A stretch of 20,051 nucleotides of DNA from a virus (IMGVR_UViG_3300034198_002558:1-20051); one strand, 5' to 3'. Counted from the stretch's first letter, positions 12,443-20,051 are shown. Notes: generated by a model not told the origin, from the sequence alone. Numbers and translations: made by a program.

Positions 12443-12515
12443 GCTGGATTGTTTCTCCAGCTGGTTTTCCTTGGTAGGTTCCTCTTACCCCCCGGTTTGC
12501 GCTGGGGGGTTTTTT
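12443..12515 (+). ncRNA. Candidate structured small RNA
   Basis: From the predicted start there are three potential hairpins: GCTGGA/TCCAGC (12443-12461, loop TTGTTTC), GGTAGG/CTTACC (12473-12489, with one G-U pair) and the terminator stem CCCCCC/GGGGGG (12488-12509) followed by six T. Hairpins 2 and 3 share two bases, so they compete slightly. No open frame of note lies inside. The alternative is a simple 3' untranslated region of the + strand operon ending at its terminator. Confidence 0.4.
12488..12515 (+). terminator. Rho-independent terminator of the + strand operon
   Basis: CCCCCC (12488-12493), a 10-base loop, GGGGGG (12504-12509) and TTTTTT (12510-12515). The T tract abuts the stop codon of the convergent giant gene. 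On the - strand no T tract follows the stem, so it works in one direction only. Confidence 0.9.
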
Positions 12516-15500
12516 CATTTCTTGCGGTTTTTTTCTTCGCGCTTGTCTGCCGCAATTCGGGATGGAATTAACGCTTCTGCAAATGGCCCCACGTTTTTTT
12601 CGGTCAGTGTGATGCCACGGAAAGATTTGCCGCGTTGCTCTTGCTTGCGCTCTAACGAATCTACAAGGTTGTCCACCGTAATTTCATACGTTGGGTAGTG
12701 GGCGTTAAATTTGCGCATATCGTCGTAGTACCCGGTGTACGCTTTGAAATCCTTTTCCCGGTATGCACGGTCCATTTGGTTCATGATCAAAGCGCGTTTG
12801 TTCAAAACCTTTTGCTCAAGGCCAATCACTTTAAACGTCACGTATTGCGTATTTGCAAGCAGGTCTGAGCGGAAACCGACAGCTTGGAAGATCAACTCGC
12901 CTGTGGTAAACGCATCACGCGACAGAATCTCAACACCCTTGTTATCTTTGGCACCCTCTTGGTAGTACCTAGCTGCGTTGACCCAGTTGCGGAAACCAGC
13001 GGGCAGCGCCTTGCTAACACCCTTCTTGTAGTCACCTTGCATAAATGCTTCAACTGCCTCCGCTTCAGACAAAATCATGTTGGCGGTTGGGCCAGCTTTC
13101 TCAAGTGCCAAGGCCATTGCGCTTTCACGCATGGTTGCAGTTTCTTTGGTATCGCGCATCCACATGTTGTTCAAGCTCACACGGCTGGAAATGTCCACGC
13201 CTGTGATGGCGTTGACGGGGCCGCGTTCAATGATGTCGGCAAGATCATGCCCAGCAATCTGAGTACCGCCAAGCTGCTCCTTGAGCCAGACAGTGCGCCA
13301 CCACAACTCGTAGCTCATGTTCTTGACTTCTTCAGGCCAGTCGTCATCTTTGAGGGAGTTCCACATAGCGCCGAGGAAACCCATGACCGTGCTGAAACCC
13401 CACAAGCCGACAGCGCCGCCGAGCACCCATGTGTGGCCCATAGTGCCAAAGAACTTTTTAGACGCTTCCCAACGGGTGCGGCCATTCATTGGCTTGACCA
13501 TCTCAACGAAGTTCTTGCCCAAGAATATAGTCGTGTGCACTGGGTACATCATGAACTGCGTGAGCACTTTGCCCGGAGCGCCTTTCATGAAGTCAGGGCG
13601 GTTGTACTGGCCATAGTTACCAAGGGCTTCGTTCGTATCTATAACCGCGTTGTCCACCGAAGTTTCGTGATCCCGGCCAGCCTTGCGGTTCAGTCGGTAC
13701 GCTGCAAGGAACATGGACTCACGCGACAAACGCTCAGTTGAGTGCATCAACCCGCCGAGCACCAAAATATCAACCGTATCCTTGGCAAACTGCACCGTGG
13801 GGGAAGAAATTTTGTCAGTCGGCGTAGCCTTGTAGTCCAACGCATCGCGTGCGTAAGTGGAAGTAGTGAGGTCACGAGCCAGCATGTCTTTGATCGCACG
13901 GCGCTCGTCTGCGCTGCGAGTGGTGTTCTCAATGGACGGAGGGACCCAAGAGAATGTACCGTCGGCGTTCTTTTGCATCACACCAAATTCGTTCCACACT
14001 TTAAGCATGTTGCCCATTTCGGCGTAGGCTTTACCAACACCGTACTTCATCAACACAGGAATGCCAGTCTGGAACAAGCTCAGTGGCTGAAGCATTGCCG
14101 AGGATATACCACCCAAATAGTAGATGAATGAGAACTTGTTGGATGCGCCAGCAATGCTTTCAGCCAAGGACGGTTTACCTGCCGACAGTGCATCCGATAC
14201 ACGGCGCTCAAAGGAAGCAACGTATGGCTCGTAGATTGGACGGTTCTTGATTGAATCACGGGCCTGAGACAGCGAGTTGCGCAGCAGGGGGGCGTACTTG
14301 ATGCGGGCAAGCTGAGTTGCCATCTTGGTAGTCGTGTCGGCCACGTTGCGCAGCAAGTCGGTACGGAAGCCAGCAAAACCCTTACGATGAATAAACTGCT
14401 TGCGGAAGCTCTGCTCAGGCATTGTTTGCAAGTAGATTTGGTATACCGCATCTTTGAGCTGCTCTTTGGCTTCTGGGCTGAACTCTGTACCCGCACCAAC
14501 ACTGTCGATCTCAGCAAACACACCAGTCAAGAGCTGGCTGTTGCCAATAGTGGTACGGCGCAGCGAACTGATGTCGTTGCCATAAACAAAGTCTTCCGAC
14601 TCCAACAAGTCCTGCATGTTTTGATCGCGGCGTTTCTTAAACGCAACGGCAGATTCCCCGGGCTTTTGCTTTACTTTTTCGTCGGCAAAACCTTGCATGG
14701 CGCGGTCGCGTTCACCCATGCTCTCAAACATAAAGAACTTGCGGGACTCACCTGTGCCAATTGACAACCAAAAATCTCCACGGCGCACCAATGGGAAGTA
14801 TGGAACGATCTTGCTACCAGTCTCGTAGATGGCCCTAATCTTCTTGATCAGGTTGGCTTGCTCAGCCATCGGCAAACCAGACTGCGTAATCTGGGCGTCG
14901 AGCAATTGGGAGAAATAGTTTGACAGAACTTCAAAGTGGCGCTTGATGCGGTTGTAGACACGTTGACCTTCAGCCCCAAGGTCGGCGTACATTTGGTCGA
15001 GCTTTTTGCTACGCACAGTCTGGGTTGTGTCCGCAGGGTCGTACTCGGCGAGAGTAGCCATGTGCGTAATTTGGTCCAGCTTCTTGCGCAGGGTTGGGTC
15101 CTTGCGGAATGCCCGGGCAATGTCATTGGTCAGGTCACCAGCAGCCTTAAGAAGCGTTTGAGTCATACCACTCATTTGCTGCATCAACTTCTGAGTATTC
15201 AGCAACTCAGGTACGCTATCCGCAGCCAGCTCGGCAAGGAAGTCGGTAGTCATTGCGTACGTCAGCGCAGTACGTGCGCCAAGGTTCATACGCTGGTACA
15301 AGTCACGAATGACCGGAACGAGCTTACGTGGGTCCTGCATCATTTGCAGCAGAGACACAGCTTTGCTGTACTCTTCCCCGTTTTGCGATTCTTCGAATTT
15401 AGCGTTTGCTACATTTACCGCACGGGTCAGTTGCCTTTGAGTACGGGCTGGGTCTCCAGCCGTCTGAGTTTGGCCACCAGCTCCGGCAGGCTGGCCGACT

Positions 15501-18500
15501 TGTCCAGTACTTTGAGCGCTTGCTCCAAGCCCAGTTGATACCCCGGGTCTTCCTTGTCCTGTTTCGCGTTCGCCATCCATTGACTCAGAAGTGCCTTCAT
15601 CTCCAATTTGTTGGTGGCTAGCGTCTTGGAAGCGGTTGCCACGAGGTTTGAGATTTCCACTGCGGAACTCCTTGTTTAAAAATTGAAAGATGTCATCGTT
15701 GCTGGTGATAACTTTGGTCAGGTCTTTTTTGACCTGTTGTAAATCAAACGACGGGTGCGTGTCAAGCAGTGTCATGACTTTTTGCATTTCAGACGCAAAC
15801 GAAGCGCCATGATTACGCACGCGAAAATGAGCCATCTCATGAACCATTGTGCCGATCATAGACACTGCAACTTGTGCGGGGGTGTCATGCATGCTGGTTG
15901 TAGCGGGGTTAATAAACATACCCTTAAACGGCACCATGATGCTGACACCGTAATACTCATTGTCGATACTCACACCAAAGGCTTGAGTGGACATATCAGA
16001 GTACGAGCTGTCAACCGACAGCAAAGCATCGCGCAGCAGGTGGAACGTATCGCCGATCGCCGCAAAATATTTGTTGACGCGAGAAACACCAAATTGGTCC
16101 CGCGCAAGGTCGGACAAGGACTGAGGCGTGCCTTCAAATATCCCAGCAGGGAGGTCAAGCCCTTCCCCTTTAAGCCAATCAACAAGTTCAACCGCCGTGC
16201 CTGATTTATTATCAGCGGAGGCGGCACCATTATTTTTATTGGCTTCATAAACGGTCAGCCAGTACCTACCGTTACCAAGGTCGGTCAACCCAAAATGTAT
16301 TTGGTCCGAGTATGGTTGAGAGGTAACCAGAGCGTCAAGCGCAGCTTTTGCGTCCGTTTCGGTCACAGTCCTTACTTGCGTTTCCGTGTTGTCATGGATC
16401 ATGACTTTGGTAGAGTCAATCTCGTCTTGCGGGACGGTCAACTCTTCGATACGTACGCTTGTCTTTTCCAAGTCTTTGGCAGTCAACTCAGGCAGTGCGC
16501 GGTTGTTGACATACAGTACGCCGTCACGAACTTCTACTTCATCGCCGGGTTTAATCAGTGTGAATGCGTTGTCAGTTGGAGGGGCGGTTGGCTCCAGTGA
16601 TTTTGCTTCAGTCACTGACCCGTCGGCGTTTACGTACTGCACCGTCCCAAAGTTTTTGACGCCCGAAGCCAGATCGAGCTGGCTGTACACGGCGGTGATG
16701 TAGTTAAAAATTTTGCCAAAATCTTCTTTGGCCACAGCCGAAAAGTTTTGGCGGTTTAAATCAAACGGATACCCAGCGTCTTCCGGCTTGACGTTCTCGG
16801 CAGGAGTCACATCTACATAAAAGGCGCGTTTAATTGGCTTACCTTCCCATCCGGGACGGTCTTGAATCTTCATGTCGAATTGCCACAGCCCGTTAGACAA
16901 TACGTGGGTATTGCCGTTGTAAGGCACGTCCATCTTTTCTTTGGACACGTAGATACGCGCAGTGCCCCAAGCAAAGTTGACGTTTGCAAACGGAGTGTAA
17001 TCATTGACAGGAAAATTAGAACCAATTGGGAGCTGCTTTGTGCCATACCCGTAATCGACATTGACATCAATGTCACCAAACAGCGGGCTGTACTCCAGCA
17101 CAGGGGCTTCTGCAAGGCTCCATTTGTTAAAATTAATCTTCTCTTGCTCGCCAGTAGACTCGTTGGTGAATGAGTCTGGGATAGTCACAGTCACCGCAGT
17201 GCCGTGGCCATCGGGAAACAGAGTATTAACGTATTGCCGCACGGTCTCTAAGTCGGAAGTCACTTCAATGTTAGGCCCCCGGTCTGGGTCATCCAGCGCG
17301 GCTTTCAAGTCATCGCCATTGGTGACCATGCGAGAGATCACACCATCGCGCAGCGACACAACTTCAAGCTGCTTGTTCTCAAACAGGAACAACATTTTGG
17401 CAACACCAAGGCCACCGGATGCACGCTTTGTCTCTTTGACAGTACCCGCAATCTGCAAGAACTGATTGCCCATCACGCTGGTTGGCATGCCAAGGCCGTT
17501 GTCCACAACACGGATAGAACGATTGTCTTGGTCAATCTTTACGTCAACACGACCTTTGGTCAACTGCCCTTGCTCCAGCGAGCCTTTGATGGCGTCGAAT
17601 GAGTTTTGGAACAGCTCTTTGATTGAGACCAGCGCAATGTCTTTTGGCGTGCCGTACAGTTTGGAGCCGAGCATTTTGGCCAGACGTTGCACGTTGGCAC
17701 TAGGGCGAGCTTTGATCGTTGTTTCGTTGGGCATCGGCGTGTTAGCGCTGGGTTCTTTATCCCCCCCGAACCCAAACATGGAGCTCGCTTGCTCCCCACT
17801 TGCGTTCTCCTCTCTACGGGTTGATTCTTCATTCATGCGAACCATCAAGTCCATTGCCTTCTGGGGGTCGCCGCCTACGAGCTCATTAACCGCATCGTCC
17901 AAACGACGGAAAGTCATTGTCTGGTTTCTTTTGAGCGAACCCGAAGATGGCACGCGCCCCTGTGTGTTCCCCCGCAAAGCAACGCGCCCTTCGGCTTCAT
18001 CGTCAGCACGCCGCGCAAGTTCGTGCAACCTCCAAATTTTTTCTGGCACCCAGTTTGGAGCACGTTGGCCAAACATAGAGCTCGTTTGCTCCCCACGAGC
18101 TTGGTACTGCGGTGCACGGGTGCTTAAGATGGTGTCGGTCACAATAACCAAGTCAGTGAGAGCATTGGTCTCATCTTCACTCATGTTAAACAAGTCGCGG
18201 ATGCCGCGCACAAACCGGGTGAAGTACGAAGTGTCTCCCTCGTGTCCATAAGCCTTGCGCAAGAAGGCTTGGAAGTCTGGGTCGGTCATGCCGTACGCAA
18301 TGAACTCCCGTGGGTCTTCCAAAACTTCGCCTCGATCAGCAAGCAAAGAAATGTACTTGGGCAGTTCATCCCGCGCAGCCATGTCATTAAACGTGTCAAT
18401 CGCACTGTTCATCGTGCGAAGCAGGTCGGTCGCGGCGCGAACCAAAGGAGAGTCGAGGTTGACGCCCTTCTTGATTGCTTCAATAGCCAGAACGATCTTA

Positions 18501-20051
18501 CGGTTAGTAGCCGCGTGCAACAGCTCGTGCAGGATAGTCAGGTTGTTGATGCCTTGGTTTTCGCCAAAGGATGCACCGCGCACATAGATTACACGGTCGC
18601 CCGTGTTGTAGTTCTCAATGTACAGCGCAATTGAACGGTCCCAATGTTTAGCGTTCTTCGCCAGTTTAAGTTGCGCTGGCAACTCTTGGTCTTCCTCAAT
18701 GACCACGAATTTGACGTTGGTGACAAAGTTGCGCAGGCGCTTGCCGAGCTTCTTCTCGAAGTATGTGCCGGTTTTGATGATGTGGTTCAGAGCTTGAACA
18801 CCGTTGGTGAACTTACCAAACGTAGTATCGGGTGCGCCCTTGGTCACGCGAGAGGAGCTAACCTGCGCTTCTTGTGCGCGTTTTTGCAGGTCCATACCTG
18901 CCAACAAGTCAGCCTTTTCTCTTTCCAAAACATCAGGGCGTGCCAATGCAGCTTTGACACGTTCGCCTACTTTGGTGCCTCGAAGCAAGGGGTCAGACTG
19001 CATTTGCAGCAGGGTTTTGATAGTTTCCCGGCGCTCAGCTCGGTGCTCGGCCAAAGCTGTTTCGTGCTCTTCGTCTGTTTCAAAATCGGCTTCATCGGGC
19101 AACGTGGCCAGCTCATCCAGCTTGTTTGTCAGCCGAATAATTAAGCGCTCAGCTTTTGCTTTTGCCGCCTGCACCGGACGTTTGTTTTCTGCACGCTGCT
19201 GTTTTTCTTCCTCGGTCAGAACAGCAGGTCGGCCACGCTTGGCCTTGGAAACTTCAGTAGTGGGAACAGCGACACCGTATTTATCTTGCAACATAGCCCC
19301 AGCTACGTTGGCAATGTCTTGGCGACCATTGGCAATGCCGTAGTTATACGACTCCAGCAACCCTTCTTGGCTCACATACAGGGGGCTGGTAATGTTTTTG
19401 ATTGCGGCTACCAGCGGGTTATCCACCCCCACGCGCCCTTGGGCTTCTTCTGCGGCCTGAAGATTATTGCCCTCCGCCGTCAACGCCCTGTATTCCCCAC
19501 GAAAAAGCGGGTCGCTTGTTGTCATTGCAGTGGGTTGCTTGCCCTTTCCTGCCACAGTGCTTGCAGCAGTCTGTCCAGTTGAAACCACTCTACTTGGCTG
19601 AGTGACTCCAGCTCCTCCGGGGGTGGTGACAACACCGGGCTGTCCAGCCATTCCAGCGCCTGTTCTATCTGTGGGACTGACAGTTGGCGCATTTCCAACA
19701 GCGCCTTCACGTTCGGCTTGTTCATCTGATTGTGCCTCCTCTTGTGCTTGTTGAATAGCCATTTGATTAGCTTGCTGGGGGTCCATGCCGCCGTCAACAA
19801 ACTCATTTGTCAGCTCAATGATGCGGGGGGCCAGCGTTTTACGTTTTTTGGCTTCTTGGGAGGCCAGCACTTGCTCAGCCTGTACTCGTGCATCCTCCGC
19901 AGGGATGCCTGTGGCTTCAATCTCGGCGGTGAGGTCGGCCAGCTTTTCTTCTTTTGAAACAGTGGGGGGCGCAGATTGTACCGAGGGGGGCGCAGATTGT
20001 ACCGAGGGGGGCGCAGATTGTACCGAGGGGGGCGCAGATTGTACCGAGGGG
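12515..20051 (-). CDS. Giant polyvalent protein: two zincin-like sites, GHKL ATPase, PLxRFG-type C-terminus (partial)
   Basis: The frame has no stop from 12515 to the window edge, so at least 2,511 residues are visible and the N-terminus lies outside. The GTG at 19870 is only internal. Numbering from that codon and going N to C: Pro/Ser/Val/Gln repeats at the edge; an AT-hook-like KRGRPA near 212; a zincin-like HELLH at 448-452; two GEQxSSMFG motifs; a GHKL ATPase with ELFQNSFDA (E752, N756), DNGLGM (790-795), GGLGVAKM and GTAVTVTIP; a SprT-like HEMAH at 1344-1348 with H1354; a Gly/Gln linker; and a long helical PLxRFG-type region with PLVRRGDFW at 1693 and a membrane-like segment near 2150-2175. 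Polyvalent phage proteins are thought to enter the cell with the DNA and act on host targets; that role is inferred here. Confidence 0.9.
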   Translation of the reverse strand, partial: PSVQSAPPSVQSAPPSVQSAPPSVQSAPPTVSKEEKLADLTAEIEATGIPAEDARVQAEQVLASQEAKKRKTLAPRIIELTNEFVDGGMDPQQANQMAIQQAQEEAQSDEQAEREGAVGNAPTVSPTDRTGAGMAGQPGVVTTPGGAGVTQPSRVVSTGQTAASTVAGKGKQPTAMTTSDPLFRGEYRALTAEGNNLQAAEEAQGRVGVDNPLVAAIKNITSPLYVSQEGLLESYNYGIANGRQDIANVAGAMLQDKYGVAVPTTEVSKAKRGRPAVLTEEEKQQRAENKRPVQAAKAKAERLIIRLTNKLDELATLPDEADFETDEEHETALAEHRAERRETIKTLLQMQSDPLLRGTKVGERVKAALARPDVLEREKADLLAGMDLQKRAQEAQVSSSRVTKGAPDTTFGKFTNGVQALNHIIKTGTYFEKKLGKRLRNFVTNVKFVVIEEDQELPAQLKLAKNAKHWDRSIALYIENYNTGDRVIYVRGASFGENQGINNLTILHELLHAATNRKIVLAIEAIKKGVNLDSPLVRAATDLLRTMNSAIDTFNDMAARDELPKYISLLADRGEVLEDPREFIAYGMTDPDFQAFLRKAYGHEGDTSYFTRFVRGIRDLFNMSEDETNALTDLVIVTDTILSTRAPQYQARGEQTSSMFGQRAPNWVPEKIWRLHELARRADDEAEGRVALRGNTQGRVPSSGSLKRNQTMTFRRLDDAVNELVGGDPQKAMDLMVRMNEESTRREENASGEQASSMFGFGGDKEPSANTPMPNETTIKARPSANVQRLAKMLGSKLYGTPKDIALVSIKELFQNSFDAIKGSLEQGQLTKGRVDVKIDQDNRSIRVVDNGLGMPTSVMGNQFLQIAGTVKETKRASGGLGVAKMLFLFENKQLEVVSLRDGVISRMVTNGDDLKAALDDPDRGPNIEVTSDLETVRQYVNTLFPDGHGTAVTVTIPDSFTNESTGEQEKINFNKWSLAEAPVLEYSPLFGDIDVNVDYGYGTKQLPIGSNFPVNDYTPFANVNFAWGTARIYVSKEKMDVPYNGNTHVLSNGLWQFDMKIQDRPGWEGKPIKRAFYVDVTPAENVKPEDAGYPFDLNRQNFSAVAKEDFGKIFNYITAVYSQLDLASGVKNFGTVQYVNADGSVTEAKSLEPTAPPTDNAFTLIKPGDEVEVRDGVLYVNNRALPELTAKDLEKTSVRIEELTVPQDEIDSTKVMIHDNTETQVRTVTETDAKAALDALVTSQPYSDQIHFGLTDLGNGRYWLTVYEANKNNGAASADNKSGTAVELVDWLKGEGLDLPAGIFEGTPQSLSDLARDQFGVSRVNKYFAAIGDTFHLLRDALLSVDSSYSDMSTQAFGVSIDNEYYGVSIMVPFKGMFINPATTSMHDTPAQVAVSMIGTMVHEMAHFRVRNHGASFASEMQKVMTLLDTHPSFDLQQVKKDLTKVITSNDDIFQFLNKEFRSGNLKPRGNRFQDASHQQIGDEGTSESMDGERETGQGRPGVSTGLGASAQSTGQVGQPAGAGGQTQTAGDPARTQRQLTRAVNVANAKFEESQNGEEYSKAVSLLQMMQDPRKLVPVIRDLYQRMNLGARTALTYAMTTDFLAELAADSVPELLNTQKLMQQMSGMTQTLLKAAGDLTNDIARAFRKDPTLRKKLDQITHMATLAEYDPADTTQTVRSKKLDQMYADLGAEGQRVYNRIKRHFEVLSNYFSQLLDAQITQSGLPMAEQANLIKKIRAIYETGSKIVPYFPLVRRGDFWLSIGTGESRKFFMFESMGERDRAMQGFADEKVKQKPGESAVAFKKRRDQNMQDLLESEDFVYGNDISSLRRTTIGNSQLLTGVFAEIDSVGAGTEFSPEAKEQLKDAVYQIYLQTMPEQSFRKQFIHRKGFAGFRTDLLRNVADTTTKMATQLARIKYAPLLRNSLSQARDSIKNRPIYEPYVASFERRVSDALSAGKPSLAESIAGASNKFSFIYYLGGISSAMLQPLSLFQTGIPVLMKYGVGKAYAEMGNMLKVWNEFGVMQKNADGTFSWVPPSIENTTRSADERRAIKDMLARDLTTSTYARDALDYKATPTDKISSPTVQFAKDTVDILVLGGLMHSTERLSRESMFLAAYRLNRKAGRDHETSVDNAVIDTNEALGNYGQYNRPDFMKGAPGKVLTQFMMYPVHTTIFLGKNFVEMVKPMNGRTRWEASKKFFGTMGHTWVLGGAVGLWGFSTVMGFLGAMWNSLKDDDWPEEVKNMSYELWWRTVWLKEQLGGTQIAGHDLADIIERGPVNAITGVDISSRVSLNNMWMRDTKETATMRESAMALALEKAGPTANMILSEAEAVEAFMQGDYKKGVSKALPAGFRNWVNAARYYQEGAKDNKGVEILSRDAFTTGELIFQAVGFRSDLLANTQYVTFKVIGLEQKVLNKRALIMNQMDRAYREKDFKAYTGYYDDMRKFNAHYPTYEITVDNLVDSLERKQEQRGKSFRGITLTEKNVGPFAEALIPSRIAADKREEKNRKK
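15427..15660 (-). CDS. Possible gene nested in +1 frame within the giant gene
   Basis: A 77-codon frame starts with GTG at 15660, with AAGGAG (15668-15673) 7 nt upstream. It encodes EISNLVATASKTLATNK, then a helix with MKALLSQWMANAKQ, then a leucine-rich helix LEQALKVLDKSASLPELVAK. The balanced composition and amphipathic helices look like a true protein. The giant protein in the same stretch is Gly/Gln/Ser-rich linker, as expected when the linker is constrained by another frame. No family recognised. It could also be a chance open frame. Confidence 0.5.
   Translation of the reverse strand: MEISNLVATASKTLATNKLEMKALLSQWMANAKQDKEDPGYQLGLEQALKVLDKSASLPELVAKLRRLETQPVLKGN
15668..15673 (-). promoter_or_regulatory. 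Shine-Dalgarno site of nested frame 15427-15660
   Basis: AAGGAG on the - strand, 7 nt before a GTG codon. In the giant frame these bases simply code for Lys-Glu. Confidence 0.5.
17772..17799. repeat. 28-bp imperfect direct repeat, copy near the GHKL domain
   Basis: Matches 18069-18096 at 26 of 28 positions. On the - strand it encodes GEQASSMFG in the linker before the GHKL ATPase. Confidence 0.85.
18069..18096. repeat. 28-bp imperfect direct repeat, copy after the first zincin-like domain
   Basis: Encodes GEQTSSMFG on the - strand. The two copies are 297 bp apart, exactly 99 codons, and in the same frame. Confidence 0.85.
19522..19725 (-). CDS. Probable small gene nested in +1 frame within the giant gene
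   Basis: 67 residues from ATG 19725, with AGAGGAGG (19735-19742) 9 nt upstream. The protein reads as MNKPNVKALLEMRQL, a helix VPQIEQALEWLDSP, a Pro/Glu turn (PPPEELESL) and SQVEWFQLDRLLQALWQERA. This W-x-x-L-x-x-LL pattern near the end is like short phage proteins I have seen. Its TGA (19524-19522) overlaps an in-frame ATG of the giant gene as ATGA, the junction style used throughout the window. The giant frame here is a low-complexity Gly/Thr/Val/Ala linker. It is either an overprinted gene or a sign that the giant frame can also be entered at 19525. Confidence 0.6.
   Translation of the reverse strand: MNKPNVKALLEMRQLSVPQIEQALEWLDSPVLSPPPEELESLSQVEWFQLDRLLQALWQERASNPLQ
19735..19742 (-). promoter_or_regulatory. 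Shine-Dalgarno site of nested gene 19522-19725
   Basis: AGAGGAGG on the - strand, a very strong match, 9 nt before ATG. In the giant frame it codes for part of Gln-Glu-Glu. Confidence 0.55.
19964..20051. repeat. 21-bp tandem repeat, at least four copies, cut by the window edge
   Basis: Four perfect units at 19964, 19985, 20006 and 20027, each GGGGGG followed by CGCAGATTGTACCGA, plus four G of a fifth. Each unit is 7 codons on the - strand and adds S-V-Q-S-A-P-P to the giant protein. With no base differences, the array is recent or kept uniform. Confidence 0.95.

Follow-up and report, generated by a model that had tools for sequence, protein, structure and literature searches.

A conserved small open reading frame inside the giant DarB-like gene of an uncultured freshwater phage is very probably a nested gene

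Gene E of phiX174, located within gene D, and gene Rz1 of lambda, located within Rz, are examples of overprinting, and nested genes of this sort are usually seen either as typical of very small genomes or as single exceptions such as Rz1. The overprinted genes of viruses have been reviewed (PMC8227390). Polyvalent proteins are described in passages of the paper by Iyer and colleagues as being ejected together with DNA (PMC5512222), and a DarB-like protein is reported, in passages of the paper on the Bcep22-like phage JC1, among the structural proteins detected in that phage (PMC9144972). The stretch of DNA analyzed here (the window) is an entire IMG/VR virus record of 20,051 bases (IMGVR_UViG_3300034198_002558:1-20051), which originates from an uncultured freshwater phage and carries a giant gene of the DarB-like/PLxRFG polyvalent-protein type. 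It was originally predicted that a small gene with its own ribosome-binding site, designated OLG1 here, is overprinted inside this giant gene, and the coordinates of the open reading frame (ORF) in the +1 frame, as well as those of the strong Shine-Dalgarno (SD) site upstream, were reproduced (Table 1). OLG1 was made more likely by the strong SD site and its protein-like composition, but relatives were needed for a decision. The proposal was borne out by the relatives, by selection and by the conservation of SD site and start codon: OLG1 is very probably a genuine nested protein-coding gene, at whose own SD site and start codon ribosomes would initiate independently on the mRNA of the giant.

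The homologues that the original prediction had called for were found in IMG/VR contigs. Scans with the single sequence, with a profile and with a divergent profile matched 22, 145 and 194 contigs, respectively, and loci were taken from at most the best 80 of these matches per scan. In every fetched relative a long ORF encloses the small one, which always stands in +1 to it. Loci were also fetched through the neighboring primase gene, which avoids selection by OLG1 itself, and OLG1 was present in the +1 frame in each of the 35 IMG/VR loci fetched in this way whose giant gene is complete; the small frame has thus stayed open in the relatives, where stops might have been met, and the primase-anchored loci that lack OLG1 end before that part of the giant. 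Among all of the loci examined, no free-standing copy was found: of the 230 matches scoring above 25 bits, 229 lie within a longer ORF, without exception in +1, and one is cut by a contig end. The final profile detected OLG1 in 251 loci, which form 106 clusters when grouped at 95% nucleotide identity; the median amino acid identity between pairs is 0.56. Since some of these loci are one contig fetched by several queries, the number of clusters is the better count. Length differences among the copies are whole codons. No OLG1 homologue was found among INPHARED phages by tblastn with P0001 or with the family consensus, nor in GTDB genome contigs, and the OLG1 profile gave chance matches only against 13 cultured DarB-like loci.

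Comparison of 18 distinct copies revealed that, at 72% nucleotide identity, the small protein is 71% identical, versus 47% for the giant protein over the same stretch, with the differences peaking at the third positions of the small frame, i.e., the first positions of the giant frame. In close pairs among 63 distinct copies, omega (an approximate count made without phylogeny) was 0.07–0.23 for the small frame and 0.36–1.25, which is near neutral, for the giant frame in the overlap. The excess conservation to be expected at synonymous sites of the giant frame turned out to be strong: giant third positions differ by 0.19 in the overlap versus 0.65 in the giant C-terminus, and, among close relatives, by 0.11 versus 0.37. 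In an unbiased scan along whole giants, in which third-position minus first/second-position divergence was calculated per window, the OLG1 overlap yielded the lowest windows in groups g1 and g2 and in the close group of the analyzed record; in g3 it came second to another nested gene (OLG2, see below). Judged from these patterns, the OLG1 frame is under purifying selection beyond that of the giant frame. The giant frame, for its part, is open in all of the copies, though its probability of being open, given the small amino acid sequence, is only about 0.04 per sequence, and the long ORF continues in this frame on both sides of the overlap; it therefore appears to be maintained there and is presumably translated. 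Further dips without an open alternative frame were also seen in giants, e.g., at g1 codon 900.

An ATG or TTG preceded by an SD-like site occurs at codon −56/−57 from the stop in 50 of 58 non-redundant OLG1 copies, while the background for ATG with an SD site in giants is 0.14% of +1 codons. In the subgroup of the analyzed record this start is lost, and the one used instead lies at −67 (or −61) and has an SD site of its own; hence the start codon differs between subgroups and the SD site moves along with it. The copies in L067 and L099 (about 6001) have no ATG, GTG or TTG at −57, but AGGA(G/A) before a CTG, perhaps a CTG start.

As was originally proposed, the giant product across the overlap has the composition of a low-complexity linker, being rich in G, A, V, T and P. 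This part of the giant would encode only a disordered linker and, for this reason, its DNA could follow the demands of the small frame. The openness of the small frame in a single sequence was considered as evidence and set aside as too weak. When codons were redrawn according to the phage's codon usage with the giant amino acids fixed, the median probability of an open +1 frame over 57 codons was 0.12; in other parts of these giants, 8% of the +1 windows are open as well. Because openness in +1 is this common, the bare ORF is unremarkable, and it is its conservation that exceeds chance.

The same unbiased scan revealed OLG2 as a dip stronger than that at OLG1. Homologues of OLG2 were found in 24 contigs, all of them nested in +1 and most with the same SD site before a GTG or ATG, and its omega is about 0.33. 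Among 73 giant loci, OLG2 is present in all 32 that have the ATPase/metallopeptidase cassette and absent from the 40 that do not, and the single exception is cut by a contig end; some of the loci are one and the same contig and many of them are related, so that this complete match does not amount to 72 independent observations. The match supports a link between nested genes and modules of the giant. The predicted fold of OLG2 is a confident four-helix bundle (predicted local distance difference test, pLDDT, 87) with no significant match in PDB. Searches of Pfam and PDB also showed a weak resemblance, below significance, to four-helix bacteriocin immunity proteins.

When cultured giants were scanned in the same way, dips at which the +1 frame is open were seen in Erwinia phages and in the comparison of Parlo with ZX1, and three further +1-nested, unannotated families, X, Y and Z, were recognized in cultured phages of Erwinia, Klebsiella, Serratia, Pseudomonas and others. 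Since the frames of homologous genes are alike, comparing alternative frames by all-against-all BLAST is noisy, and candidates were kept only if they had an SD site plus either a lower third-position rate or a family. Family Y is present in 21 cultured-phage records, from Erwinia to Microcystis phages, including PEp14, SopranoGao and PBC5. Family X (129 amino acids, eight records) includes Parlo, ZX1, Skulduggery and, more distantly, Ruegeria phage 45A6 and two Vibrio phages. Family Z, whose members have 70–76 amino acids, end in ..LH and lie earlier in the same giants, was found by BLAST in five Erwinia records, including Pavtok, and related ORFs exist in Parlo and ZX1. Under the X, Y and Z matches, the records annotate the giant gene, except for Itty13, which has an antisense ORF there; the giants whose start is annotated (VvAW1, Ruegeria 45A6, Vibrio 1.232.O) also have their nested match in +1. 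For X and Y, the identity of the nested frame is higher than that of the giant frame. X in ZX1 (L188:7516-7545) and Y in SopranoGao (L305:5266-5295), both of which are Lastavirus phages, have nearly the same sequence, caattygayarygaggtaac.ccga, before the ATG; this motif shared within one genus suggests that one nested gene was replaced by the other at one site. A kinship of OLG1 to the three families, for which similar MxKPN starts and -LH ends might speak, was ruled out by hhalign, which detected no homology (probability <1%). Two records drew attention in family Y. In PBC5 (L195:4339-4915, L312), the annotation divides the giant into two genes and ends the first in the family Y frame, either through a sequencing frameshift or a real split. 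In Itty13, gp02 (L308) is an antisense ORF annotated over the family Y region, opposite to what is presumably the coding strand of the giant, and is likely a gene-calling error.

The product of OLG1 is acidic (67 residues in the window, 56–69 across the family; median pI 4.4, net charge −5), and AlphaFold places helices at residues 17–28 and 44–63, predicted to be joined by a proline-rich loop. The nested genes stay with the giants, and OLG2 stays with one module, which is why a partner role is put forward, tentatively and with more doubt than confidence: OLG1 might be a small, helical assembly or escort partner of the giant ejection protein, or its inhibitor, made from the same mRNA. With a shared mRNA, both the timing and the quantity of OLG1 would be coupled to those of the giant, and OLG2 would serve the ATPase/metallopeptidase cassette likewise. 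The chief rival, a serious possibility though not quite a probable one, accepts OLG1 as real but directs its product at the host (takeover or counter-defence, e.g., as a small acidic mimic), with no relation to the giant, whose linker would merely be roomy. The small size and acidity of the product agree with this, as do the unrelated nested families in equivalent linkers of other giants, as if linkers were simply permissive, whereas the lack of a free-standing copy and the exact tracking of one giant module by OLG2 argue for the partner role; moreover, no defence-related family was matched in the libraries searched, PADLOC not being among them. Sequence alone cannot separate the two roles. 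In a broader version of the partner proposal, which we regard as plausible but still short of likely, linkers of giant genes would be general nesting sites for small +1 genes, and OLG1, OLG2, X, Y and Z would be unrelated families carried, or swapped, together with modules and encoding dedicated partners (chaperones, inhibitors or co-ejected cofactors), a layer missed by annotation across many phages, cultured ones included.

Three other readings would dispense with an independently initiated gene or add a second product to it. A constraint at the level of DNA or RNA (a signal, a recombination node at a shuffled domain border or an RNA structure), with the open frame as a by-product of G/A/P/T-rich codons, would account for the OLG1 segment being kept where the flanking domains of the giant vary between relatives, and for an openness that is not rare in single sequences; it is disfavoured and extremely unlikely, for the changes are concentrated at small-frame third positions rather than evenly suppressed, omega of the small frame is well below 1, lengths change in whole codons, and SD site and start move together. 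Programmed frameshifting, in which ribosomes translating the giant would slip to +1 and terminate at the stop of OLG1, so that the giant product is cut short and carries a different tail, fits the +1 relation and the PBC5 gene that ends in the family Y frame. PBC5 is, however, a single old record that may hold a sequencing frameshift, amino acid conservation starts at the start codon, and SD-start pairs are conserved; furthermore, in L032 and L052 a stop sits immediately before the ATG in the small frame, leaving an ORF of exactly 57 codons that cannot be entered by a frameshift upstream. This reading is thus highly improbable. It was also originally proposed that the OLG1 stop overlaps an in-frame ATG of the giant, that such ATGA junctions are the usual gene boundary, and that ribosomes could restart there. 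The overlap is present in the window, but in no other of the 251 loci: 143 copies end in TAG, 66 in TAA and the others in TGA in other contexts, and the giant codon at the junction in relatives is TTG, ATA or another one. Restart is therefore no conserved feature, the commonness of such junctions at gene boundaries is not evidence for a nested OLG1, and re-initiation yielding a shorter giant product is very unlikely.

Several points nevertheless weigh against OLG1 as a nested gene with a function tied to the giant. Its AlphaFold confidence is moderate (pLDDT 72; predicted template modelling score, pTM, 0.50), and no significant match was found in Pfam, PHROGs, NCBIfam, PDB sequences or fold libraries, including those of viral folds. 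Both frames are equally atypical in codon usage, which does not indicate the older one. Translation of OLG1 is what we infer from its conservation, from selection in both frames and from the SD/start architecture, and the functional proposal is drawn from location and co-occurrence only. The sole family match, to phrog_5825, was weak (E-value, 0.0016), concerned one divergent member and was dropped, as the records hold no gene-level support for it.

The product of the giant gene is DarB-like (phrog_10089; E-value, 3e-53), and this profile match, together with a multidomain architecture (LPD39, HATPase), places the gene among the DarB-like/PLxRFG genes; an ART-PolyVal domain is present in the giant of the relative L105. 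The first part of the gene is missing, because the window ends in a tandem repeat inside it. The cultured relatives nearest to the primase and the giant are mostly phages of 55–64 kb, at 22–28% identity. A related primase, at 72% identity, is found on a 3.9-kb contig (L280) of a betaproteobacterial metagenome-assembled genome, a weak host lead and possibly a binning artefact.

Table 1. Positions of the nested genes, their signals and the giant-gene features in the window, and of families X, Y and Z in cultured-phage loci (locus:positions).
Feature	Position	Strand	Remarks
OLG1 nested gene, 67 codons, ATG 19725-19723 to TGA 19524-19522	19522..19725	-	+1 frame of giant gene
Shine-Dalgarno site AGAGGAGG	19735..19742	-	9 nt before OLG1 ATG
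ATGA overlap of OLG1 stop and giant-frame ATG 19525-19523 (MTTSDPLF...)	19522..19525	-	proposed restart site; not conserved
OLG2 nested gene, 77 codons, GTG start at 15660	15427..15660	-	+1 frame of giant, linker before LPD39
Shine-Dalgarno site AAGGAG	15668..15673	-	7 nt before OLG2 GTG
Giant DarB-like/PLxRFG polyvalent-protein gene	12515..20050	-	2511 codons, 5' end open at contig end; contains OLG1 and OLG2
HSP90/gyrase-type ATPase (HATPase_c_3) domain of giant	17318..17626	-	presence tracks OLG2
YgjP-like metallopeptidase motif of giant, weak	15773..15847	-	E-value 0.003, under Pfam cut-off; just upstream of OLG2
LPD39 polyvalent-associated domain of giant	14906..15274	-	E-value 3e-07
21-bp tandem repeat at contig end	19964..20051	.	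probably assembly break within giant gene
Family X	L306:7253-7642, L188:7541-7930, L189:7256-7645		+1-nested
Family Y	L191:4064-4381, L305:5291-5617, L307:4564-4881, L196:4571-4879		+1-nested
Family Y, further loci	L185:5093-5410, L190:4634-5032, L195:4607-4915		+1-nested
Family Z	L307:2092-2322, L191:1826-2056, L306:5204-5419, L188:5876-6088		+1-nested

An unannotated gene as universal as its giant gene in a large clade of aquatic phages would mean that gene callers forbidding full overlap hide conserved phage genes. Since OLG1 occurs in all of the complete relatives and cultured phages carry similar unannotated ORFs, nested genes appear to have been missed in phage annotations. They are testable candidate partners for giant ejection proteins, the packaging and control of which are poorly understood, and cultured hosts make such testing practical, e.g., Pseudomonas fluorescens SBW25 with phage Skulduggery.

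Overprinting itself is known, while no description of several unrelated families that recur in one frame at the linkers of polyvalent giants was found in the open-licence literature; prior notice elsewhere is possible. A key-word search of the polyvalent-protein paper (PMC5512222) returned no "overlapping" and one unrelated "reading frame", with no mention of nested genes at these words, and nested genes are not mentioned in the key-word passages of the JC1 paper (PMC9144972). The giant gene of the window belongs with the DarB-like/PLxRFG polyvalent proteins by its LPD39, ATPase and metallopeptidase motifs and by the ART domain of its relative. Families X, Y and Z are similar to OLG1 in being unannotated +1 ORFs with SD sites in linkers of homologous giants, and differ from it in that a sequence relation is undetectable. 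Like the overprinted genes of other viruses, OLG1 would encode a second protein that is read in another frame, entirely within an older gene, from a start site of its own. It differs from them in that its host gene encodes a very large ejection protein of a double-stranded DNA phage, with the overlap in disordered linkers, and in that the +1 frame of such giants has been used repeatedly, by several unrelated nested families.

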